A DNA stretch of 33,507 bases from Candidatus Margulisbacteria bacterium GWF2_35_9 (lineage in GTDB: Bacteria > Margulisbacteria > Riflemargulisbacteria > GWF2-35-9), in contig MFRH01000099.1 in NCBI GenBank assembly GCA_001783275.1, positions 1 to 33,507 on the forward strand, in the 5' to 3' direction. Within the stretch, counting starts at the first letter, position 1; each line of letters begins with the position of its first letter. Position numbers and translations under genes: made by a program. The notes beneath the pieces are model-generated. The model made no database searches. It was not told the origin of the DNA and worked only from the letters and a program-made list of their open reading frames with translations. This document shows, piece by piece, positions 2 through 11,594 of this stretch.

Positions 2-781
2 TTTCAAGACTTTGAGCTAATAATCATCAATGATGGATCCAATGACCAATCAGTCAATATCATTAGAGAATATATGCAGACTTATCCACAAATAATTATC
101 TATTTATCACAGGATAATCTGGGTGTATCATCCGCTCGTAACGCTGGTATTTCTAAGGCTAGAGGAGAATATATAGCATTCATCGACAGTGACGACCTGT
201 GGATAAAGTCCAAACTAGCTGACCAGTTAAAGTTCATGAAAGAGAACGATATTGATATTTGTCAAACAAATGAACAATGGATACGAAATGGAAAAAAGGT
301 CAATTCCATGAAAAAGCACACTAAACGAAGCGGGAAGATCTTTTATGATTGCTTGCCACTTTGCATTGTGTCCCCATCTGCGGTGATGATTAGAAAATCC
401 GTTCTGAGCAAAGTTGGACTTTTTGACGAAAAACTTCCAGCAGTAGAGGACTATGATCTTTGGTTAAGAATAAGCCTTCATTATCCAATATACTTACTCG
501 ACAAAAAATTAATCACAAAATATGGTGGTCATTCCGATCAACTCTCACGCCAATTCTGGGGGATGGATCGATTTCGCATTTACTCAATGTTAAAACTACT
601 AAAAAAACACAATCATCAACTTGATATCTTTAAAAAAATAGCATTGTATTGGTGGATAAAGGAAAAGGCACGCTATTTATATCTTGGTTCACTAAAGCGA
701 CTTCGAGTCATTTCATATTTGCGATATAAATTTCTATTTATCATTTTCTCAAATAAATGGTTAAATACAGAAGTATTATGA
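2..781 (+). CDS. Family 2 glycosyltransferase (5'-truncated by window edge)
   Basis: GT-A-fold glycosyltransferase that would transfer a sugar from a nucleotide-sugar donor to a cell-envelope or exopolysaccharide acceptor; the acceptor cannot be told. The frame is open from base 2, before the first ATG at 74, and already encodes the family's INDGSNDQS motif there, so the true start lies outside the window. Further family marks are DNLGVSSARNAGI (donor binding), the metal-binding FIDSDD, and the acceptor-side ED-Y-D-LWLR motif. The C-terminal third is basic and aromatic-rich with no clear membrane segment. Its stop overlaps the start of the next glycosyltransferase (ATGA at 778-781), so the two are probably translated together. 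The family call is firm; the substrate is unknown. Confidence 0.9.
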   Translation, partial: FQDFELIIINDGSNDQSVNIIREYMQTYPQIIIYLSQDNLGVSSARNAGISKARGEYIAFIDSDDLWIKSKLADQLKFMKENDIDICQTNEQWIRNGKKVNSMKKHTKRSGKIFYDCLPLCIVSPSAVMIRKSVLSKVGLFDEKLPAVEDYDLWLRISLHYPIYLLDKKLITKYGGHSDQLSRQFWGMDRFRIYSMLKLLKKHNHQLDIFKKIALYWWIKEKARYLYLGSLKRLRVISYLRYKFLFIIFSNKWLNTEVL

Positions 782-1491
782 AACGATCTTCAAATATACT
801 CCTAATGTTACCTGTTTTTAATGAGGAAGAAACTGTTGCGTGTGTTTTGAAAGAAGTTCAACGCTTTTATAAAGGTGATATTCTTTTGGTTGACGATGGA
901 TCAACCGATGCTTCTATTGATAAAGCCAAAGCTTTAAATATTTTAAATTTAAAGATCATTCATCACAATAAAAATATGGGGTATGGCCAATCCATTGTAA
1001 ATGGCTTTGATTACGCTATAAATAACAACTATGACATACTGATAACAATGGACTGTGATGCTCAACACGAGCCAGAATTTATACCATCGTTCATAAATAA
1101 AATAATAGATTACGACATTGTTTCAGGTAGTCGCTATTTAGTTGAGTCCAAGAATAACAATACTGCACCGAGTGATCGAATTGAGATTAATCAAATCATC
1201 ACGAATGAGTTAAATGCTTTAACACACTATCATCTTACCGATTCTTTCTGTGGCTTTAAAGCCTACAAGGTAAGCACTTTAAAGAAAATAAAAATAACAG
1301 AAATGGGTTATGGAATGCCACTCCAATTTCTTGTTCAGGCTTTTTGCAAAAAACTTAGCCTTGTTGAAATTCCGGTTACACGTATTTATTACCACTTAGA
1401 TCGCTCATTTGGTCTTGATTTAGACGTAAAAGAAAGTCGATTACAGTATTATCGAAATGTTATCAAAGAGGAGGTTTTTAAATGTCGATAG
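778..1491 (+). CDS. Family 2 glycosyltransferase, dolichyl-phosphate-mannose-synthase-like
   Basis: Predicted soluble glycosyltransferase, 237 aa from the ATG at 778, which overlaps the previous stop as ATGA. An ATG at 757 in the same frame would add seven residues. Motifs: LPVFNEEETV near the N-terminus, LLVDDGSTDAS, NMGYGQSIVNGF, the metal-binding MDCDAQHEPE, and VSGSRY. These fit the DPM1/polyprenyl-phosphate glycosyltransferase branch of GT2. There are no C-terminal membrane helices, so it may act at the inner membrane face on a lipid-phosphate or on a soluble acceptor. It overlaps the deacetylase downstream by 10 bp, whose SD lies inside this gene. The position just before a BshB-like deacetylase makes a role in making that enzyme's N-acetyl-sugar substrate conceivable, but BshA is a GT4 enzyme, so this is only inference. 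Confidence 0.88.
   Translation: MKRSSNILLMLPVFNEEETVACVLKEVQRFYKGDILLVDDGSTDASIDKAKALNILNLKIIHHNKNMGYGQSIVNGFDYAINNNYDILITMDCDAQHEPEFIPSFINKIIDYDIVSGSRYLVESKNNNTAPSDRIEINQIITNELNALTHYHLTDSFCGFKAYKVSTLKKIKITEMGYGMPLQFLVQAFCKKLSLVEIPVTRIYYHLDRSFGLDLDVKESRLQYYRNVIKEEVFKCR
1467..1474 (+). promoter_or_regulatory. Strong ribosome binding site for the BshB-like gene
   Basis: AGAGGAGG ends 7 nt before the ATG at 1482 and sits inside the end of the upstream glycosyltransferase gene. It fixes the start of the deacetylase and indicates independent strong initiation within the operon. Confidence 0.8.
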
Positions 1492-2174
1492 ATATAATGG
1501 TTATCGGAGCTCATCCGGATGATGTTGAAATCGGGATGGGGGGTACAATTGCAGCTTTTTCTCAGGCCGGCTACAAAGTACTGATACTGGATTTATCTGA
1601 TGGGGAGCCAACTCCAGCGGGTACTCATGAAAAAAGGATGATAGAAGCAAAAAATGCTGCGGAAATTTTAAAAGTTGAAAAGCGAATTACGCTAGACCTA
1701 GTGAACCGAGAAATTATGGATACTGTCGAAAACCGCAAAAAAGTTGCAACCGTTATGCGTCAATATAAACCAACACTGCTCTTTATTCCCTATTGGGATG
1801 ACGGTCATCCAGATCATGTGGAAGCAGCCAAGTTATGTACGTCTGCTCGTTTTTACTCTAAATTTGTTAAATCAGAAATGGCATTTGAACCTCATTTCCC
1901 AGAAAAAATATATCATTATCTGACTCTTCATATGCGTCTCCGAGTTGATCCTTCTGTTATCTTTGATATTAGCAATTTAATTGAAACAAAGATCAATGCC
2001 CTAAATGCCTACGCTTCGCAGTTTATTGACAACAAAAAGAATACAGCAGCATTTGAATCTGTTAGAACTGAAAATGCCTACTGGGGAAAACAAATCCGTG
2101 TCGCATATGGCGAACCCTTTATTTGCAAAGAAAACATAAAAATGTCCTCTCCGGACAGATTCTTAGATGCCTGA
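1482..2174 (+). CDS. bshB1: PIG-L/LmbE-family N-acetyl-sugar deacetylase, BshB1-like
   Basis: Zinc-dependent deacetylase. In bacillithiol synthesis BshB removes acetate from GlcNAc-malate; related enzymes act on other GlcNAc conjugates. The protein is 230 aa, the usual length for BshB1. Seen: the N-terminal zinc motif AHPDD (H11, D13, D14), a glycine-rich GMGG segment, and the second zinc motif HPDH (residues 109-112) following PYWDDG. The start is set by a strong SD. The stop overlaps the start of the next gene by 8 bp. That next gene resembles BshC, the enzyme that adds cysteine to the deacetylated sugar, which supports a thiol-synthesis role. No bshA-type GT4 gene is in the window, so the exact substrate is uncertain. 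The family is certain; the BshB1 assignment is likely. Confidence 0.88.
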   Translation: MSIDIMVIGAHPDDVEIGMGGTIAAFSQAGYKVLILDLSDGEPTPAGTHEKRMIEAKNAAEILKVEKRITLDLVNREIMDTVENRKKVATVMRQYKPTLLFIPYWDDGHPDHVEAAKLCTSARFYSKFVKSEMAFEPHFPEKIYHYLTLHMRLRVDPSVIFDISNLIETKINALNAYASQFIDNKKNTAAFESVRTENAYWGKQIRVAYGEPFICKENIKMSSPDRFLDA

Positions 2175-3564
2175 CTTTGCTCATTGGGAAAATCTATTAG
2201 TAGAAAACCAACACAGGTTAAGTAACTTTCTAAATATCTTTTCTATTGGCGAAATCCATCGTCTACGAGAGGAAATAATTAATTCAGCAATAAGCTATAC
2301 TCAACGGTTGGAAACAATTGCTTTTGAACATGGAATCATTTTACAGAAAGCTTGTGGTGTTACCTCCTTCAATAAGCTCATCATGACGGGTCATCAACCT
2401 ACAATTTATCATTCTGGCATTTTAGCAAAAAATCTTTCATTAAATACCTTTGCCCAAGAAACAAAAACGGCGGCAATTAATATTATTATTGATACTGACT
2501 CCGGTAATGGCGGGAATATATATTACCCATCCATCCTTAACGCCGAACCCGAGGTACAATCAATATCTATTTCTGATAACAGCCCTCTCTATCTTTATCA
2601 AAAAATAGTTGGTTCAAATGAAATTGAAAACACCTTAAATCTTATTCATACAGGATTAACAACCGTTTCCTTAAATTTTGTTACCGCTAAATCGAAAAAG
2701 GTGCTCTCTCTCTATAAACAGCTCTCAGGAATGTCCTTATGTGAAGCAAATACCATCGCACGTCGTTACTTGAGTCCCAGTAACCACTACTACGAACTTC
2801 CACTATCCTTGATTTTAAAATCTAGCTATATTCAAACTCTCTTTTCAAAGATTCTTGCAGACGGTGATGCCTTTTCTAATCAATATAATCAAGCACTTCA
2901 TACATATCGACTCGACCATAAAATAAAAAATAACGCCAACCCTTTTCCAGATCTTAAACCTAATGAAACGCCTTTTTGGCTGATTGATTCATCGAAAAAA
3001 GATCGGAGTTCATTTTTTAATTCAACAAAGCCAGAGAACTGCTTCCTCGCTCCTAAGGCCTTCCTGATTACTCTACTACTGCGATTCTGCTTATCGGATT
3101 TATTTATTCATGGCAAAGGTGGTGCTAAATATGACCAGTTTCTTGATTACTGGGTGTCGATATACTATAAAATGCAAGCGCCTTCTTTTGTATCTGTTTC
3201 AGAAGATCGCTATTTATTTCCCGACATAATTGAAGAATATGAAAACTATCTGTCTGTACTATCTAGGCGTCGCGAGATAAGTGGCCACCTAGAAAAACAT
3301 CTTCGCTCTTCCCTATTTAACACTGCTGATAAATCCTGCCTCAACGAATTCTTAAATTCAAAAACACAACTTCTTTCATGTTTACAAAAAAAAGATAATA
3401 CCAGTACGCAACGAAAGTTGCTTGGGAAAGAAATTAAAGCTCTAGACCTGTGCATTAAAGACTTTTTAAATCATAAATTAGCTGTTCCAAATGAGTCTAA
3501 GTTGGCAAATATGAATACCGACTTTTTATATTTTCGGGAATATCCCTTCTTCTTTTTTACTTAA
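2167..3564 (+). CDS. Divergent BshC-like protein (putative cysteine-adding enzyme)
   Basis: 465 aa, soluble. I see features that recall BshC, the putative cysteine ligase of bacillithiol synthesis: a TGHQP motif (residues 74-78; BshC has GGQQAG/TGQQAG-like sequence) followed by H-SGILAKN, and a later FIHGKGGAKYD segment (about 312-325), where BshC has an I-GGGGE-YW-type motif. From memory, planctomycete proteins annotated as BshC-like or hypothetical share the GHQ...HPGILAK and DLFIHGIGGAKYD patterns. The C-terminal part is helical and probably coiled coil, as in BshC. It overlaps the deacetylase by 8 bp and no strong SD is visible, so translation is probably coupled. Its 3' end overlaps the opposite-strand HD/ACT gene by 8 bp. 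The similarity was judged by eye and needs a profile search. Confidence 0.6.
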   Translation: MPDFAHWENLLVENQHRLSNFLNIFSIGEIHRLREEIINSAISYTQRLETIAFEHGIILQKACGVTSFNKLIMTGHQPTIYHSGILAKNLSLNTFAQETKTAAINIIIDTDSGNGGNIYYPSILNAEPEVQSISISDNSPLYLYQKIVGSNEIENTLNLIHTGLTTVSLNFVTAKSKKVLSLYKQLSGMSLCEANTIARRYLSPSNHYYELPLSLILKSSYIQTLFSKILADGDAFSNQYNQALHTYRLDHKIKNNANPFPDLKPNETPFWLIDSSKKDRSSFFNSTKPENCFLAPKAFLITLLLRFCLSDLFIHGKGGAKYDQFLDYWVSIYYKMQAPSFVSVSEDRYLFPDIIEEYENYLSVLSRRREISGHLEKHLRSSLFNTADKSCLNEFLNSKTQLLSCLQKKDNTSTQRKLLGKEIKALDLCIKDFLNHKLAVPNESKLANMNTDFLYFREYPFFFFT

Positions 3565-6385
3565 CACTCTTTAAAGAAACTGCAATACTATGAAGCACCT
3601 CCGTCGGTACTTCTTCACTCTTTTTTGTATTCACAATGAACTGCAATTGAAGACAATTTTGTTTAGCATTACTTACAATGATATTCTCTAATTCCTTCGC
3701 ATCATCTGGGAAATTTTCCTGCAGAATTTTCCTTATACTATCAATCTTTTTCTTATCTATCTCTAACTCTCCTTTATCGTTAAGCAAAGAAACTTCTAAA
3801 AACTTCCCCCATAGCATATCTGCTTTTTCCGTTGATATACGTATCGATTCTCTTTTAACTGTCTTTGTAAATTCTACGTGAGCAAACTCAATATTGATCT
3901 TATTTTCTCTAAACACACCCGTTATGTTTCTAAGTATTTTCATATCCGCAGGGTTTGAAATTTCGATATTGATTATCTGCGTATCCTCTAAAGCCAAATA
4001 ATTAACATCAACTTTTCTGTCCGGCAACTTCTCAATTAAAGTATCCATTTCCACAGAATATATATCTGTTAACTTTTCTTTACTAACGCATACAAACTCT
4101 TTATTTGAAGAAAGGGTTTTAAAAAATTCCTTTAGTTTATTTTCATCATTACTATCAAAGATTATTTCATCGACAACCGCACCATTTTCTCCAGTAAAAA
4201 AATTGAGTTGAGTAGGGAATAACCCATGAAACTCCAAATAACTGATCAAATCCGTTGCCAACCCAATATAGTCTTTTGCATAAACCACTAATTTAGGTTT
4301 AGATGACAGCTCTTGCCCTTCCATTGGTTCTCTGTGAGCGAATAGAACACTCTTCTGCATGTCTTGACCATTATGCTCTTTTGTCAGCCACATATCACTC
4401 AGTATTTGTTGTGGCATATTTGAGCGATGCAAACCATAAAGAGAACCCATATTTTCTGTGTATTCAGCTGTTTCTCTTAAAATACTGGACACCATTAAGT
4501 TCCTAAGAGAATCTGGAGTTACTGATCTTGTGCTATTTAACAAATACTCTTCTATTTGAATTAAATCTGTTCTAATCTGGTTTTGTTGAAGACTTTTTTG
4601 GCTAGCCATCAATGCAATATTGCTTAAACAGTTATATATTATATGATCATCAATAATACCTAGGTTCGAACCCATACGATCTGCCAGAGATATTAATAAT
4701 AAAAGCTCAGGGTAATCAATGATTGTCGCACACAATCCATATACCGGATTTTCTGCAGAATACAACTTCATTTTATTTACAATATTGTGATATTTTATCT
4801 GTTGAAGCGTAATACTTGTTTGTTCTTTTGAAAGATCTAGTGGACCTATGAGTTTTGCAGCTATTTCTTCGCTAATAATTTCATGCTTTTCATTCTGTAC
4901 TCCTTTTGCAATATCATGAAATAACGCCGCCAAAACTAGGGGCATCTTCTTTTTAGAAGTAACCTGATAGTCTGCCATAAAACTGGCAAACCCAAACATC
5001 CCACTAAGTATATTTTTAATTTCATATTCCACTTCATCTACTTGATCATATCGATCGATATTATCAGTATTGATAGCCTCTATATAATCCTTTGTTGTGT
5101 GTAGCAATCTTTGATCAAACAAAAAACTGATTTGCTTCAACAGCCGAAGAGCCTTAACATCCTTTTCTCTTAATCTCTTGATAAATTCTTTTTTAATACT
5201 AACAGTTCCTTTTGAAGAATTTTTACTATAGTCCGAAAACTCAAATAATAGATCAAGACCCCGTATCACCTGCAACATGTGTTCTCCTACCGGATACTGA
5301 TGAAAAGATACTAATTGTGGTTTCCCATCAACTAAAGACCAACCTGCACTCGAAAACGCTTGGCCAATGGGTGAATCTATATCTTCTTGCCAACCACTAA
5401 ATGCTTTATTGAGAAACCCCACATTACGAAGAGTCTTACAAAACTCATAAGCATTGTTTATATTCGAAGCTTCGGTTAGTATTTCCTTAAATACTCTATA
5501 ATGGACGTTTTCCAAGCCAATTGATTCCTTAATACATTTATATAATAAGCGTTCCAAAGATAATGATATTCGATAATTCAGTATATTTCCTATGCTTGCA
5601 ATAATCATTAAGCCAATTGTCGATATTTTAACATCTTGCCCATCGATTAAATCCAATTCATTATGCTTATTAATTCTTATCATCGAAGACAAGGTATCTA
5701 GTTTTTTAGAAAAATCATCTTTAATTCCGGCTCTTTCTAAGATTTTTTGAATGGTCCGCATGGTCTCCGGCCAAGATTCTATATTTCGAAGCGGTGTTTC
5801 TTTATTGCTTATTGAAGACGATTCATTAATTAGCATTTGTGTTGCTCTTTCTAATAAACGAATTGACTTATAAAACGACCCTGATAATTGTGTTAATCCA
5901 TTTTTTCCTGTTTTAAGTTGTAACGCTGCAATTAGTGATTGAAAGATTGGTTCATCCTTGTCATTAACTGCAAATAAAAACCTAGACCAAATATTGCTGT
6001 CGCTACTTCGTTGATGCTCTTTTATTGTATCTAAGTAATTTTGTTTTTGAGACCATGTATAATTTCCTAGGACGTTAACAACATCGCTTTGAAGTACTTC
6101 ATTTACGCTTTCTATGAAACAAATACTTTCTATAATTTCATTCCGTAGAGCGTTGCTGATCCTTTTCCTTTCATGCAATTTGTCAAAAACGTTTATACTA
6201 TTAATATTATTAATGCTGCTAAAAGCTGTTTGAACTGATTTAAATCTGTTTAAAACACGATTAACATCAACGTCGATTAATGTTTCAACTTCTTTGTTTT
6301 TCATTGTTTCAATTGTAATATCTTTTTGTATTCGACGAATCGTTTGCTTTGCCGACTCTAATTCACTTACAATTTTTGCATTCAT
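3557..6385 (-). CDS. GlnD-like HD-ACT-ACT protein lacking a nucleotidyltransferase domain
   Basis: 942 aa. The region from about residue 320 resembles the second half of GlnD, the PII uridylyl-transferase/removing enzyme: a YPVGEH helix (H369), the phosphohydrolase motif LFHDIAKG (H490, D491), H501, KYHN (H533) and a late LADR aspartate (D569) give a full HD metal set. Two ACT-like ligand domains follow (about 698-760 and 803-870). GlnD's N-terminal nucleotidyltransferase signature (GSxGRxE...SDxDL) is absent; instead there are about 320 residues of helical unknown sequence. It may therefore be a metal-dependent phosphohydrolase controlled by a small ligand such as an amino acid, but PII deuridylylation is not established. 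The start is supported by AAAGGTGA upstream of the ATG. It is transcribed alone, divergent from the ParB-like gene. Confidence 0.72.
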   Translation of the reverse strand: MNAKIVSELESAKQTIRRIQKDITIETMKNKEVETLIDVDVNRVLNRFKSVQTAFSSINNINSINVFDKLHERKRISNALRNEIIESICFIESVNEVLQSDVVNVLGNYTWSQKQNYLDTIKEHQRSSDSNIWSRFLFAVNDKDEPIFQSLIAALQLKTGKNGLTQLSGSFYKSIRLLERATQMLINESSSISNKETPLRNIESWPETMRTIQKILERAGIKDDFSKKLDTLSSMIRINKHNELDLIDGQDVKISTIGLMIIASIGNILNYRISLSLERLLYKCIKESIGLENVHYRVFKEILTEASNINNAYEFCKTLRNVGFLNKAFSGWQEDIDSPIGQAFSSAGWSLVDGKPQLVSFHQYPVGEHMLQVIRGLDLLFEFSDYSKNSSKGTVSIKKEFIKRLREKDVKALRLLKQISFLFDQRLLHTTKDYIEAINTDNIDRYDQVDEVEYEIKNILSGMFGFASFMADYQVTSKKKMPLVLAALFHDIAKGVQNEKHEIISEEIAAKLIGPLDLSKEQTSITLQQIKYHNIVNKMKLYSAENPVYGLCATIIDYPELLLLISLADRMGSNLGIIDDHIIYNCLSNIALMASQKSLQQNQIRTDLIQIEEYLLNSTRSVTPDSLRNLMVSSILRETAEYTENMGSLYGLHRSNMPQQILSDMWLTKEHNGQDMQKSVLFAHREPMEGQELSSKPKLVVYAKDYIGLATDLISYLEFHGLFPTQLNFFTGENGAVVDEIIFDSNDENKLKEFFKTLSSNKEFVCVSKEKLTDIYSVEMDTLIEKLPDRKVDVNYLALEDTQIINIEISNPADMKILRNITGVFRENKINIEFAHVEFTKTVKRESIRISTEKADMLWGKFLEVSLLNDKGELEIDKKKIDSIRKILQENFPDDAKELENIIVSNAKQNCLQLQFIVNTKKSEEVPTEVLHSIAVSLKSVK

Positions 6386-6543: not shown

Positions 6544-7443
6544 ATGAACATGAAACTACTTAAAACAGGTAAAAACGTCAAAACGGATCTATTTAATTTT
6601 TCATTTTCAAGATCAACGACTTTATTAGAAACATCTATTAAAACTAATGGCCTGGCACAATTGCCTTATGGCATAGTTGTTCATGACTCCATTCAAATAT
6701 ATGAGGGCCTAAAGCGATACACCATTGCACTAGAGTTGGGGCTTGATATTGATATTATTGTTAAAGAGCTGTCTATTAAGGAGGCGTTTCTTGAAAAAAT
6801 ACGGATGTCATCGACTAAATATAATCCAATAGAATGCGCTGCCATACTAACCTTTGCCAACACACATCATATTGATTATGATTTATTTATCAAATATCTT
6901 GGTATAAATATAGAAAATGCCGCTGCCTATTTAAAACTACTAACTTTACCTCTGTCAATTCAACAAAAAACAGCCACTGAACCAGAATTTCTAAAAGTTT
7001 CGCAGCTTTTATTACCAAAACATGAGAAAGACATTCTTGAAATCTATGACATTATTATTAACTACAAATTAAATATCAATCAGAGCTATGAATTATGCCA
7101 AATAATCGATGAATTAAGATTAAAAGATGCCTCTTTTAAACTCGATTCATTATTAAATCTAGAAATAAATTCAGCTAACTCTGCTCAGGAATTTATGACA
7201 CATATAAAACATATTCGATACCCAAACTACATGCAACTTAAATCTGTATTAAACAACGCTTTGAAATCAATTAAATCATCACACATTCGGTTTGATTACA
7301 AAGACAACTTTGAATCAGACGAAGTTAGCCTAACAGCATCTATCCGGGCTCCTCAAGATATAGAGAAAATCATTAGTGAGCTTGAAACCAACAAAAATGT
7401 TATTACAAAATTGCTATCAATTATTAAACGTGGAACACACTAA
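6544..7443 (+). CDS. ParB/Spo0J-like nuclease-domain protein
   Basis: 299 aa. The N-terminal third follows the ParB_N pattern: a run ending in LLETSIKTNGL, then a short beta region, then IYEGLKRYTIALELG, equivalent to the ParB 'DGxxRxxAxxxLG' box; the usual D is replaced by E. A central helical part (about residues 90-135) containing NPIECA and a following helix recalls ParB's 'NxxExA' segment and helix-turn-helix. The classical GERRxRA and arginine patches of chromosomal ParB are not visible, so a role in chromosome partition is unlikely; ParB-fold proteins also serve as CTPases or nucleases in specialised loci. It is separated by only 2 bp from the radical SAM gene, which overlaps the aldo/keto reductase, so the three form one operon. 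Function in that setting is unknown. Confidence 0.6.
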   Translation: MNMKLLKTGKNVKTDLFNFSFSRSTTLLETSIKTNGLAQLPYGIVVHDSIQIYEGLKRYTIALELGLDIDIIVKELSIKEAFLEKIRMSSTKYNPIECAAILTFANTHHIDYDLFIKYLGINIENAAAYLKLLTLPLSIQQKTATEPEFLKVSQLLLPKHEKDILEIYDIIINYKLNINQSYELCQIIDELRLKDASFKLDSLLNLEINSANSAQEFMTHIKHIRYPNYMQLKSVLNNALKSIKSSHIRFDYKDNFESDEVSLTASIRAPQDIEKIISELETNKNVITKLLSIIKRGTH

Positions 7444-7445
7444 TT

Positions 7446-8513
7446 GTGTCATTAATTAAGCATATCCTAATCAATAATACAGTCGCAGATAAACCTTATA
7501 CACTCCAAATCTTGTCTCGGCTTAAACATGTGCCCATCGTTTTCTTTGATGAACCCAATTTTCAGTCATTAAAAAACACCTACGATTATGAACACACGCT
7601 TCTTCTTACTAACCTCAAAGGCGAACTCTTAAAGGATTGTCCCGGGACTCAGTGCTACAGTTGTTGTGGATATAAAATACTTAACATTGGGGCAAACTGT
7701 TTATATAAATGCACCTATTGTATTCTCCAAGACTATTTTAAAACTAAAATGCAGATTGTTTATGCCGACCTTGAAGAATACATTCCTAGCGTCTTAGAAC
7801 AACTCAGAAACAACTCAAACTCATTGTTTCGGATCGGTACTGGTGAATTTACTGATAGCTTGATATTAGATGATATTACACATCTATCCACTTTATTAAT
7901 TGATCTATTTCGTCCCTTTCAAACTGTTTTTTTGGAACTTAAAACAAAAACTCTCTGTATTGATAATTTATTATCGATCAAGGCTTCGGACAATGCCGTT
8001 ATTGCTTGGTCTTTGAATACACCCCGAATGATTAAAGATATTGAAAAAGGAACGCCCTCTCTTGAAAAACGATTAGCAGCAGCCAAAAAAGTAGTGGATC
8101 ATGGCTATCATGTTGCGTTTCATTTTGATCCAATTATTCTCTATCCTAACTGCCTCTCTGAATATGAAAACGTTATTGATATGTTGTTTGCCACTATTCC
8201 TGCAGATAAAATAAAATGGATCAGCATGGGTACGCTACGCTTCACAAAAGGATTGAAAAATAACTTCTATCAACGATCCCCTCTTTTTATTGATGAGTTT
8301 ATACAGTGTAACGATAATAAATTTCGCTATCTTCGCCACCGACGTGTTGAAGCGTATGCCTGTATATTAAGCAAAATCAGAGAGTACGCTCCGCTGGTTT
8401 ATACTTACCTGTGCATGGAGTCTCCAGCGGTTTGGACTGAAGTATTTGGTTATAAACACAATGATAATGTCATCTTTGAAAACGACTTTAACGCTCAGGT
8501 TTTTAAGCGATGA
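7446..8513 (+). CDS. Spore photoproduct lyase-like radical SAM protein
   Basis: 355 aa. The radical SAM cluster motif C-x3-C-x2-C is at residues 85-92 (CLYKCTYC), followed by ILQDYF as in the SplB family. An additional cysteine-rich stretch just before it, CPGTQCYSCC (C65, C70, C73, C74), is unusual for true spore photoproduct lyase and may serve a second cluster or a redox role. A glycine/glutamate run RIGTGEFTD fits the SAM-binding GGE-like strand. SplB repairs spore photoproduct in DNA; relatives outside spore-formers are often annotated the same way without evidence. Nothing in the window indicates sporulation. It starts at GTG 7446, 2 bp after the ParB-like gene, with weak SD, and its stop overlaps the next ATG (ATGA). 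Family good, substrate unknown. Confidence 0.8.
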   Translation: MSLIKHILINNTVADKPYTLQILSRLKHVPIVFFDEPNFQSLKNTYDYEHTLLLTNLKGELLKDCPGTQCYSCCGYKILNIGANCLYKCTYCILQDYFKTKMQIVYADLEEYIPSVLEQLRNNSNSLFRIGTGEFTDSLILDDITHLSTLLIDLFRPFQTVFLELKTKTLCIDNLLSIKASDNAVIAWSLNTPRMIKDIEKGTPSLEKRLAAAKKVVDHGYHVAFHFDPIILYPNCLSEYENVIDMLFATIPADKIKWISMGTLRFTKGLKNNFYQRSPLFIDEFIQCNDNKFRYLRHRRVEAYACILSKIREYAPLVYTYLCMESPAVWTEVFGYKHNDNVIFENDFNAQVFKR

Positions 8514-9382
8514 ATTATAATCAACTTGGAAAATCAGCACTTAAGGTTTCGGCAATCGGCCTTGGTTCATGGATAACCGGCAAGGCTGGGTGGAGCAATG
8601 TTAACGATGCTGATTCGATTGATGTCATTCATGCATCTATTGAGAGAGGTGTTAACTTTATTGATACCGCTCCCATTTACGGTTTCGGTCATGCAGAAAG
8701 TATTATTGGAAAAACAATTAAACCCTTTCGGGATAAAATCATACTGGCAACAAAATGTGGTCTGACAGATAATTATCTTCATGATCTTTCACCAAAAGGG
8801 ATTATACGAGAACTAGAATTATCCCTTAAACGTCTTAATACAGATTATATTGATTTATATCAAGCTCACTGGCCCGACCCAACTACAGCAATTGAATCTA
8901 CGATGGGGACCTTTCTTAAACTAAAAGAAAAAGGTCTTATTCGTGAAATTGGATTTTGTAACCACTCAGTAGCAGAACTTCATAAGGTTATAGCCATGGG
9001 AACAATAACTAGCTTGCAACATCAATACTCCCTGCTTAATAGAAATATAGAGACAGATATCATTCCGTTCTCTATTCAAAACGATATAGGAATCCTTGCA
9101 TACGGAGCGCTTCATGGAGGCCTCCTTACCGGTAAATACAGAACATTACCTGCTGTGCCAAAGAAAGAAGCAAAATCTTTCTTTTACAAACTTAACGATC
9201 CAGATCAATGGAACAAAGCAGAAACAATATTACACCAGATAGATGCTCAGGCAGCTAAAAACAACAGAAGTATCTCGGCTGAGGTTCTAAACTGGACCTT
9301 GTCACAAAAAAATATAAGTTCTGTTCTACTTGGTGCTCGAAACACAACTCAACTTTTTAATACCTTTAATCATCTTTTTTAA
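8510..9382 (+). CDS. Aldo/keto reductase family oxidoreductase
   Basis: 290-aa TIM-barrel NAD(P)H oxidoreductase. The catalytic set is visible: DTAPIYG (D52, Y57), LATKCGL (K82) and the AHWPDP strand with its histidine near residue 119. A C-terminal SSVLLGARN segment matches the family's cofactor-binding end. The N-terminus is standard (NQLGKSALKVSAIGLGSW). The ATG at 8510 overlaps the stop of the radical SAM gene by 4 bp, so it is translationally coupled to it. AKRs of this type reduce sugar aldehydes or small carbonyls; the substrate cannot be read from sequence. Its tight link to the ParB-like and SplB-like genes suggests the three act in one process. Confidence 0.92.
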   Translation: MNYNQLGKSALKVSAIGLGSWITGKAGWSNVNDADSIDVIHASIERGVNFIDTAPIYGFGHAESIIGKTIKPFRDKIILATKCGLTDNYLHDLSPKGIIRELELSLKRLNTDYIDLYQAHWPDPTTAIESTMGTFLKLKEKGLIREIGFCNHSVAELHKVIAMGTITSLQHQYSLLNRNIETDIIPFSIQNDIGILAYGALHGGLLTGKYRTLPAVPKKEAKSFFYKLNDPDQWNKAETILHQIDAQAAKNNRSISAEVLNWTLSQKNISSVLLGARNTTQLFNTFNHLF

Positions 9383-9454: not shown

Positions 9455-9516
9455 ACAATTATAGTATCCTCACATACATTTTTTTAACAAATTAAACGTA
9501 AACAGGGGGTTTGCAT

Positions 9517-10986
9517 TTGAGTTTTTCTAATAGCAAAATGAATTCAACAAAATCTTACATCCGAAGTCACATCCATAAGCAAAACAAGATACAACTAGAC
9601 GAGAAATTATACACTAAATTTAGATTCTATTTAGACAATAAATCCGACCAAACTTTTAACGGAGTAATGGCCGATTCCACTGATAAACAGTACCTGCAAT
9701 CACTGATTCAAAATATGATTAAATCTCCACAAATGAAGGGCAATATAACCGACAATAAAATTCAGGATGATTCTTATTTCTGTCGCAATCGAAATCAGTC
9801 TACTTTTAAAATATTTCGTTATTTTATTCAAAGTCTTGTCTACTATTTCTTACCATTTCTTTTAGCGAAAAAGAAAATAGATTTTATATTTCTTGTCCAT
9901 ATCCGATATGAAGAAGATTGTAATACACATGCACCATATATTTCATTTCTAAAGAAACTGTTGCCTACTAAAACGTACCTATACTTATTTTCTCTCCTTC
10001 CACCACTCCTACTGGACGAATTCACTCATGCCAATGGATCCAAAGGATTGTTAATTTCATCTACCCACTTACCACAGCCACTAATAAACGGAAAAAAAAC
10101 AAGAACTAAAGAAATTAATCGTTCGCTGAAGTTTATTTCCAATGCCTGTGTGCCACAACATGAAAAGATCGTCATCTCTCTTGGAGCTTGGTGGCCAATT
10201 ATATCTCTACACGGGCAACTTTTTGAAAAAGTATTGCCAAACGATCATCCCTACATCATAACAACAGGTCATACAGCTACTCTCTATTCCATAGTTAAAA
10301 CGGCTGAAGATTTAATTGAGAAGTCTTTGTTACCAAGAGAACAAATTAATATCGCAATTATGGGATGTGGCAACATCGGATTTTTTGCAGCAAACACGTT
10401 GCTTAGCAAAGGAGTACAGGTAACGCTCATTGATATCAATGAGATCAAACTATTAAAATTAAAAAAACAATTGCAAGAATCATTTCCTGATAGCCTTATT
10501 CATCACCATACATTTTCACATGAATCCGTTCAACCTATCCTCAATACTTGCCATTTTGGGATTTGTGCTACTTCCAACACTAAAGAGATTATAAAAAAAG
10601 AAGATATCCCGGATTTTTTTGTATTCATTGATGACTCTCGTCCAGAAGCGATTCCTCGCTTTGATTACGGTGATAACAAATATACGTTGGAGGGCGGCCT
10701 TATTAATGTTCAAGGATTTCAGTCCAGCTTTAACTTCGGATTCGGAAATGACAGCAACTTACTTGGATGCTTATCTGAAGGATATATTTTAGCGTTAGAT
10801 CAGCAACTAAACAAAACGCTATCTCCAACAAAGTCAGTAGCGTCTGTTGACCTGTATAACAGTATGGCACGTTTCTGTGAATCTCAAAATATCAGACCCG
10901 GCGACTATAAAATGGGAGAACTAACTCTTCAAGAAACAACCATCATACAAGCTGTACGATGTAGACATGAACTAATAAACAGGTAA
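9517..10986 (+). CDS. Acyl-ACP-reductase-like Rossmann oxidoreductase
   Basis: 489 aa. The central part resembles the long-chain acyl-ACP reductase / shikimate-dehydrogenase-like Rossmann family: TTGHTATLYSIVKTAED, then the dinucleotide-binding strand IAIMGCGNIGFFAA (about residue 281) and a VTLIDIN acidic strand end; later VFIDDSRPEAIP and LEGGLINVQG recall the reductase's 'DGGYPKN...GGIVE' segment. Cyanobacterial enzymes of this family are about 340 aa; here about 150 extra N-terminal residues are present, including an aromatic hydrophobic patch near residues 100-125 that could touch membrane. A start at TTG 9517 is preferred because AGGGGG ends 7 nt upstream; TTG 9511 is too close and ATG 9538 too far. 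It may make a fatty aldehyde or act on another carboxyl thioester. Which one is not shown. Confidence 0.55.
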   Translation: MSFSNSKMNSTKSYIRSHIHKQNKIQLDEKLYTKFRFYLDNKSDQTFNGVMADSTDKQYLQSLIQNMIKSPQMKGNITDNKIQDDSYFCRNRNQSTFKIFRYFIQSLVYYFLPFLLAKKKIDFIFLVHIRYEEDCNTHAPYISFLKKLLPTKTYLYLFSLLPPLLLDEFTHANGSKGLLISSTHLPQPLINGKKTRTKEINRSLKFISNACVPQHEKIVISLGAWWPIISLHGQLFEKVLPNDHPYIITTGHTATLYSIVKTAEDLIEKSLLPREQINIAIMGCGNIGFFAANTLLSKGVQVTLIDINEIKLLKLKKQLQESFPDSLIHHHTFSHESVQPILNTCHFGICATSNTKEIIKKEDIPDFFVFIDDSRPEAIPRFDYGDNKYTLEGGLINVQGFQSSFNFGFGNDSNLLGCLSEGYILALDQQLNKTLSPTKSVASVDLYNSMARFCESQNIRPGDYKMGELTLQETTIIQAVRCRHELINR

Positions 10987-10990
10987 TTTC

Positions 10991-11033
10991 TTGACGACTG
11001 ACCATTTTTTTTGTACCATATTCTTGTATGGTA
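10991..11033 (+). promoter_or_regulatory. Promoter and palindromic operator over a leaderless start
   Basis: TTGACG (10991-10996), 17 bp, then TACCAT (11014-11019). The palindrome TACCATA-TTCTTG-TATGGTA (11014-11033) has perfect 7-bp arms. Its left arm contains the -10 and its right arm contains the ATG at 11028. No SD is present. A DNA-binding product could repress its own promoter here. Confidence 0.6.
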
Positions 11034-11594
11034 GATATATTAGAGACTCTTATACAATCTAAAGTTAAACGAAAACTTCTAAAATTATTTTTGTTCAACA
11101 AAAATATTAAGTATCATACCCGCGCAATTGGACGTGTTATCGATGAACCCATTTCGGCCGTTCAACGTGAACTCAAAAAATTAGTAGAAAGTCAGGTGCT
11201 GATTAAATATCCTGAAGGCAATATTATTAACTACTTTCTTAATACACAAAATCCTTTCTATCCAGACCTAAAAAAAATTGTTTTAAAAACAACAACTGAA
11301 CCAAAAGACTATTTTAAGCTTCTCATCAAAACCGCCTCGCTTGAGCGAATTGCTTTGTTTGGAGAAACAGTTAAAAGCCCCATGAAATTCTCAGAACCCG
11401 TTCATTTACTAGTTGTCGGATTATTGGATAAAGATATCTTAAACGAATATATTAAAGCCATTATGGAAGTATTTAACCGTGAATGCGACTTGGTTTATTT
11501 ATCACCCGATGAATACAAAAAGAAGAAAGATACAGATAAAGCGCTACAAAAAATTATTAATAACAAAAACTTTCTCGTTTTAAAAGAATCCTAA
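11028..11594 (+). CDS. Winged-helix protein with degenerate nucleotidyltransferase-like domain
   Basis: 188 aa. Residues about 5-68 form a winged helix-turn-helix of the ArsR/MarR-like kind (TRAIGRVIDEPISAVQREL as recognition region, then a wing ending NIINYFLN). Residues about 100-160 resemble the MNT/KNTase polymerase-beta fold, where active members have FGSxARG...SDIDLLVVG. Here it reads FGETVKS...FSEPVHLLVVG, so the Gly-Ser and the Asp-x-Asp metal site are lost. It is probably a regulator whose second half senses rather than catalyses. The ATG overlaps a perfect palindrome and lacks an SD, so the mRNA may be leaderless and autoregulated. Its stop overlaps the opposite-strand dprA stop by 4 bp. 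Confidence 0.7.
   Translation: MVDILETLIQSKVKRKLLKLFLFNKNIKYHTRAIGRVIDEPISAVQRELKKLVESQVLIKYPEGNIINYFLNTQNPFYPDLKKIVLKTTTEPKDYFKLLIKTASLERIALFGETVKSPMKFSEPVHLLVVGLLDKDILNEYIKAIMEVFNRECDLVYLSPDEYKKKKDTDKALQKIINNKNFLVLKES

Follow-up and report, generated by a model that had tools for sequence, protein, structure and literature searches.

A radical SAM enzyme resembling spore photoproduct lyase, its ParB/Noc-derived partner and an aldo/keto reductase in a Margulisbacteria operon: possible local form of an apparently undescribed module

In the catalysis of spore photoproduct lyase (SPL, or SplB), a radical S-adenosylmethionine (SAM) enzyme, roles have been described for the hydrogen donor C141, the relay residue Y99 and Y97 (Bacillus subtilis numbering; PMC3742179), although the Clostridium acetobutylicum enzyme uses C74 as its hydrogen donor instead of C141 and still repairs (PMC5368176). 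In the hopanoid pathway a radical SAM protein of a different family, HpnH, adds a 5'-deoxyadenosyl group, HpnG removes the adenine and HpnI glycosylates (PMC12583986). The ParB fold was surveyed in 2025 using Pfam-type gathering cut-offs, in a text without mention of radical enzymes (PMC12704722). Here we describe a three-gene operon that encodes a ParB/Noc-derived protein (hereafter the partner), an SPL-like radical SAM enzyme and an aldo/keto reductase, in a 33,507-nucleotide stretch of DNA (the window, meaning the whole stretch analysed) that is contig 99 (MFRH01000099.1) of the 2.35-Mb, 87% complete genome of Candidatus Margulisbacteria bacterium GWF2_35_9 (Table 1). The SPL-like enzyme, the partner and a family-2 glycosyltransferase make up a chromosomal module that is real and conserved and appears to be undescribed; our literature search found no description of it and no paper joining ParB and SPL.

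The three genes are tightly coupled, as a first-pass annotation of this DNA had claimed: a gap of 2 bp separates the partner and SPL-like genes, and the SPL-like and reductase genes overlap in the ATGA at 8510-8513. The gene upstream (3557-6385) lies on the opposite strand, indicating that a separate transcription unit begins with the trio; scans of the window for consensus promoters and terminators scored no higher than shuffles. All five order-level relatives with an SPL-like gene (G001-G003, G005 and G006) carry the trio contiguously, in the same order and on the same strand, with 48-55% identity to the window's radical SAM protein and 41-56% to its reductase, and the relative G004 has neither SPL-like gene, partner nor close reductase. 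Among the matches listed, the nearest relative with a name is L047, from an uncultured Candidatus Marinamargulisbacteria bacterium. The first gene encodes only 136-204 residues in the five relatives and aligns with residues ~134-297 of the window protein; because a six-frame profile search upstream of it found no remnant of the ParB N-domain, the part kept with the enzyme is the C-terminal half, and a frameshift or pseudogene origin of the short partner was rejected on the same ground.

The assignment of the second protein to the SPL family holds by domain (PF20903, E 1.3e-23) and by fold, its AlphaFold2 model (predicted local distance difference test, pLDDT, 90) matching SPL 4fhe over the full length in Foldseek (E 7e-21, template-modelling score 0.78-0.81); against TIGR04070, the lyase family, it scores 90 bits where the cut-off is 400 bits. 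The motifs named in the first-pass annotation (C-x3-C-x2-C and CPGTQCYSCC here, EGLKRYTIA in the partner) are all present. Aligned to real SplB, the 63 family members have replaced the hydrogen donor C141 with E (61/63) or Q (2/63), and the relay Y99 with I or F in 61, Y remaining in two; the equivalents of Y97 and K175 are retained. SPL recycles SAM by means of the Cys-Tyr relay that is missing here, and we therefore predict that this enzyme consumes SAM and does not recycle it. C65, C74 and C323 are invariant, and the fourth cysteine is C73 in all but four sequences, which come from two phyla and have C67 instead, the change of C73 to S being always paired with that of G67 to C. A four-cysteine iron-sulfur (Fe-S) site would be expected to show such a swap, which a hydrogen-donor role alone hardly explains, so that the four co-varying extra cysteines suggest a second Fe-S site in addition to the radical SAM cluster motif. 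C65 may also be a relocated hydrogen donor: it aligns with S77 (B. subtilis) in 63/63 members, tentatively, as the region is gapped and the clostridial enzyme stands outside the alignment.

The ParB identity of the first protein is likewise borne out, at the level of the family. As a single sequence the window partner matches HTH_ParB (HTH, helix-turn-helix) marginally (0.069); the family profile matches Noc (PDB 7ng0) with E 4.8e-24, its hits to Noc/Spo0J structures ranging from 4.8e-24 to 1e-17 and covering the ParB and HTH domains, and the AlphaFold2 model of the window partner (pLDDT 89) finds Noc 7nfu in Foldseek (E 7e-8). In many relatives the protein directly upstream of the SPL-like gene has ~330 residues, among which a ParB_N domain can be recognised at a score slightly below the Pfam cut-off. 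The family members tested fall below the PF02195 gathering cut-off, and the partner family was therefore probably outside the view of the 2025 survey. The window copy keeps Box I (EGLKR) and has RMSSTKYNPIE in place of Box II (DNxxxRxLNxxE), so that the earlier remark that the usual ParB motifs are missing is right for this copy; Desulfobacterota-type partners have GxxR of Box I in all cases and [DE]N of Box II in most. What persists where the nucleotide- and DNA-binding part has gone is a helical linker with R[FY]P at its end, even as an 86-residue protein or a fusion to SPL. The C-terminal profile has no convincing relative in the PDB and no match among known ParB C-terminal domains. A role of the window partner in chromosome partition was rejected, as a canonical ParB is encoded elsewhere in the genome (C58, 176 bits), and no parA was seen beside the partner gene. 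The genes upstream of SPL in L087, L098 and L099 were also rejected as partners, being unrelated on alignment.

The partner also occurs in fused and reduced forms. In two Margulisbacteria lineages (L035 and L146) the SPL-like protein carries the partner linker as an N-terminal fusion (linker profile E 1e-15 and 4e-18, respectively, in a search run together with 192 background open reading frames), and in two genomes of a further lineage (G008 and G010; loci L036 and L037) the 86-residue protein, encoded just before the SPL-like gene, is all that is left of the partner (4e-6 and 3e-8 in the same search). A nucleosidase link appears at some of the same loci: in L035 and L146 a nucleosidase-like gene lies just upstream of SPL, and in L135, L140 and L142 a nucleosidase/phosphorylase-like domain, with HpnG among its weak matches, is fused to the glycosyltransferase. 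In the window's order (L127-L131) the glycosyltransferase instead follows a phosphoribosyltransferase-like gene. One Fusobacterium protein resembles a chain of nucleosidase, linker and SPL, if weakly (methylthioadenosine nucleosidase profile 7e-5, linker not significant).

How far the module extends was seen by scanning named genomes with an alignment of the SPL-like family, which returned at least 562 relatives, of which 80 were kept (a single-protein query found none); these are mostly from Desulfobacterota, the rest including KSB1, Zixibacteria, Sumerlaeota, Aerophobetes and Nitrospirae. Gene-neighbour clustering revealed the second companion, the family-2 glycosyltransferase with a GGxxDQ[LV]S motif, encoded directly upstream of the SPL-like gene in Desulfobulbales and with the partner in between in other lineages. 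Among 148 Desulfobacterota genomes, drawn evenly, 87 have the SPL-like gene, 80 the glycosyltransferase, 76 the partner and 67 all three. The partner is accompanied by SPL in 75 of its 76 genomes (odds ratio, OR, 375, p 5e-28), the partner match in the sole exception, G128, beginning at base 138 of a contig, and the glycosyltransferase in 76 of 80 (OR 98, p 1.5e-24); two genomes counted as partner-less, G122 and G134, have a diverged or truncated partner beside the SPL gene. The partner lies directly upstream of SPL in 49 of the genomes, and glycosyltransferase, partner and SPL are contiguous in 20, as they are in the Margulisbacteria genome G025 (L142); genes tens of kb or more apart on the same contig still co-occur (G088, G125, G160 and G188). 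In Margulisbacteria, every one of the 18 genomes in which the glycosyltransferase is found (E<=1e-60) also carries the SPL-like gene, vs 13/37 of those lacking the glycosyltransferase (p 1.5e-6).

The reductase behaves differently. It is a clear member of PF00248 (E 5.6e-63), its closest PDB chain being general stress protein 69 (1pz1), and by inspection its catalytic tetrad (D52, Y57, K82 and H120) is present. Only in this order (six genomes) does its gene come immediately after that of the SPL-like enzyme; four distant Margulisbacteria (L039 and L044-L046) have a more diverged reductase a few genes off, one KSB1 genome has a reductase directly upstream of the SPL-like gene, and none was seen adjacent to it in the Desulfobacterota contexts. 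The expectation that the trio would be conserved elsewhere thus stands within the order and fails for a wide unit, whose real co-conserved companion is the glycosyltransferase and not the reductase. Given this patchy adjacency outside the order, the reductase was rejected as a conserved requirement of the module and is most plausibly a finishing step particular to the lineage.

Our preferred reading, to which we give a probability of roughly 0.45, is that the operon is one local form of this module, in which an SPL-fold radical SAM enzyme acts with a dedicated ParB-derived docking subunit and a lineage-specific reductase in a SAM-consuming biosynthetic or modifying pathway. We infer the following order of steps. 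The enzyme would cleave SAM, and the 5'-deoxyadenosyl radical would act on a nucleoside- or sugar-type substrate, a class indicated by the nucleosidase- and phosphoribosyltransferase-like neighbours. The partner would bind the enzyme via its helical linker and RYP segment, and where a lineage retains the complete ParB fold, placement that depends on nucleotide or DNA may be a further contribution of the partner. Glycosylation of the product by the glycosyltransferase would follow, with nucleosidase processing as well in some Margulisbacteria and, in the window's order, reduction by the aldo/keto reductase. The strongest inference among these is a complex of the radical enzyme with the ParB-derived subunit, in a pathway shared with the glycosyltransferase. 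The first-pass annotation had also suggested that a modified nucleotide is made and that the reductase acts on a carbonyl product, and this is possible. A bolder and distinctly tentative version holds that several anaerobic phyla share an unrecognised pathway, in which a two-Fe-S SPL-fold enzyme in complex with a ParB-derived subunit, nucleoside-triphosphate-gated in some of them, would make a new glycosylated nucleoside, nucleic-acid base or 5'-deoxyadenosyl-derived product.

Several observations weigh against our preferred reading. No HpnG-type nucleosidase was matched in the window genome (87% complete), and the nucleosidase link is limited to some Margulisbacteria and, weakly, to one Fusobacterium fusion. 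The co-occurrence p-values ignore phylogeny, although the same gene order in two phyla (for example L063 and L142) argues against shared descent alone. Because the clostridial SPL repairs without C141 (PMC5368176), loss of this residue alone does not exclude a lyase, and DNA as the substrate would be just as compatible with an HTH of the Noc type and the fold of SPL. The main rival builds on this last point: the partner would be a nucleotide-gated DNA clamp carrying the SPL-like enzyme, thymine would be repaired or modified, and the glycosyltransferase (with the reductase) would elaborate the base. We regard it as possible, if on the doubtful side. The partner profile does cover the ParB and HTH domains of Noc/Spo0J, with Boxes I and II mostly kept in Desulfobacterota-type partners, the SPL fold is full-length with K175 kept, and an ssb gene often follows SPL in Desulfobulbales; however, the ParB N-domain is missing in five relatives that keep SPL and the C-terminal half, only the 86-residue linker protein is left in G008 and G010, the SPL-like subfamily was not found in the viral, phage and plasmid collections searched, and metabolism is suggested by the nucleosidase- and phosphoribosyltransferase-like genes that accompany the glycosyltransferase. 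The same absence, and the lack of any match between the window's proteins and the PADLOC defence models, led us to reject a phage, plasmid or defence origin, and neither result supports the DNA-damage response first proposed for the trio; nor is that response supported by the replacement of C141 and of Y99, each in at least 61 of 63 members, or by module contexts in which no repair gene recurs across lineages.

A specific form of our reading takes hopanoid synthesis as its precedent: the 5'-deoxyadenosyl group would be added onto an alkene, a nucleosidase would remove the adenine, the reductase would reduce the sugar aldehyde thus exposed and the glycosyltransferase would add a sugar. The HpnH-HpnG-HpnI series (PMC12583986), the missing SAM-recycling pair, the purine-nucleoside-phosphorylase/nucleosidase domain fused to the glycosyltransferase or encoded beside SPL, and a reductase with its tetrad are all consistent with it; we nevertheless think it rather unlikely, as it lacks the HpnG-type match in the window genome, sees no nucleosidase cluster beside the module in Desulfobacterota contexts (where none was searched for by profile) and leaves no role for the ParB-derived partner, the most constant companion. 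It is improbable that the enzyme is simply a genuine lyase of the clostridial kind, with its hydrogen donor at C65 and the other genes as unrelated operon mates. C65 does align with S77 of B. subtilis in 63/63 members, the equivalent of S76 of the Geobacillus thermodenitrificans SPL, where PDB 4rh0 has an engineered cysteine in a C140A background, and the C. acetobutylicum SPL relies on C74, not C141 (PMC5368176). Yet this correspondence comes from the gapped and therefore tentative part of an alignment without the clostridial enzyme, the relay Y99 is lost too, the TIGR04070 score is 90 against 400 bits, and the enzyme family co-occurs near-perfectly with two others. Finally, the ParB-like protein could be a mere transcriptional regulator of the operon that makes no contact with the enzyme, as the HTH of its family and its place as first gene would allow; the HTH is however lost in relatives, the linker is fused to the enzyme and co-occurrence persists when the genes are unlinked, so that we hold this to be very improbable.

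Other genes accompany the module or surround the operon. In Desulfobacterota loci L150-L167, a glycosyltransferase away from SPL often follows an IspH-type fusion and dihydrouridine-synthase-like genes (by inspection); in L169, L171, L177 and L178 a purC-like gene adjoins the ParB-derived partner even with the SPL gene elsewhere; and in one Margulisbacteria family a second radical SAM-like protein with a weak SPASM match (L133, 1386-2555) comes directly before the glycosyltransferase. Within the window, 1482-3564 holds BshB1 (213 bits, above the cut-off) and a 465-residue gene without an NCBIfam hit that looks like BshC on inspection, which by sequence are part of the bacillithiol pathway; in the relative G002 the same block runs from a phosphoribosyltransferase-like gene through the glycosyltransferase, a DPM-like glycosyltransferase and BshB to BshC. 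The opposite-strand gene at 3557-6385 encodes a 942-residue protein with a GlnD-like HD domain, a weak ACT-like C-terminus and no nucleotidyltransferase match. Directly 3' of the reductase, 9511-10986 encodes a 491-residue Rossmann protein with weak likeness to a PigE region (37 bits), possibly of the acyl-reductase type, which is not at this place in G005 and G006. The 188-residue protein at 11028-11594 has no family match and by inspection looks HTH- and nucleotidyltransferase-like; it is syntenic, adjoining the trio in G005 and G006 and the glycosyltransferase in G003.

Table 1. Features of the operon and of the glycosyltransferase gene, in window coordinates
Feature	Position	Strand	Remarks
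Family-2 glycosyltransferase	2-781	+	5' end cut by contig end; belongs to the family co-occurring with SPL; ~6 kb from the operon, outside it
ParB/Noc-derived partner protein	6544-7443	+	299 aa; ATG start; stop TAA 7441-7443
N-terminal ParB-fold part, degenerate nucleotide pocket	6544-6948	+	Missing from the five closest relatives
Conserved C-terminal half: helical linker, RYP motif, beta-hairpin domain with DNFES	6943-7434	+	Kept in order-level relatives
SPL-like radical SAM enzyme	7446-8513	+	355 aa; GTG start at 7446
CPGTQCYSCC stretch, C65 to C74	7638-7667	+	Within the SPL-like gene
Radical SAM motif C85-x3-C89-x2-C92	7698-7721	+	Within the SPL-like gene
C323 codon	8412-8414	+	Grouped with CPGTQCYSCC as candidate second Fe-S site
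Aldo/keto reductase	8510-9382	+	290 aa; ATG start

Many SPL-like proteins of anaerobes are likely read as DNA-repair enzymes, and one large subfamily of them probably does something else. The ParB fold appears to have taken a new role as companion of a radical enzyme, its nucleotide- and DNA-binding part being lost and a small docking segment kept, and the tight co-occurrence with the glycosyltransferase means that the function can be tested in sulfate reducers that grow in culture, among them Desulfogranum and Desulfobulbus. While the window's proteins are each related to a described system, there are a number of key differences. With spore photoproduct lyase (SplB; PF20903, TIGR04070) the enzyme family shares CX3CX2C, the full-length fold and the Y97 and K175 equivalents; it differs in having no C141 and Y99 equivalents, four extra conserved cysteines, a near-constant partner and glycosyltransferase, and a score far below the family cut-off. 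The SOS-network operons of SplB-like photolyases (PMC3765255) are conserved too and contain an SPL-like radical SAM gene, together with ImuB-C, SRAP, Ku/ligase or DUF4130, none of which was seen recurring in the module contexts (they were not searched for by profile). The hopanoid pathway of HpnH, HpnG and HpnI (PMC12583986) follows a like logic of radical SAM enzyme, nucleosidase-like protein and glycosyltransferase, but with a radical SAM protein of another family and with HpnG, for which the window genome gave no match. The partner resembles the ParB/Noc CTPase clamps in the match to the N-domain and HTH of Noc and in the GxxR of Box I; unlike them, it has no ParA beside it, a C-terminal domain of a different kind, marked by R[FY]P...FE motifs, and an N-domain that is degenerate or lost here. 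Finally, the reductase has its nearest type among the YhdN/IolS-type aldo/keto reductases, with 1pz1 closest and the tetrad present, and is set apart from them by its direct coupling downstream of an SPL-like gene, an arrangement particular to this order.

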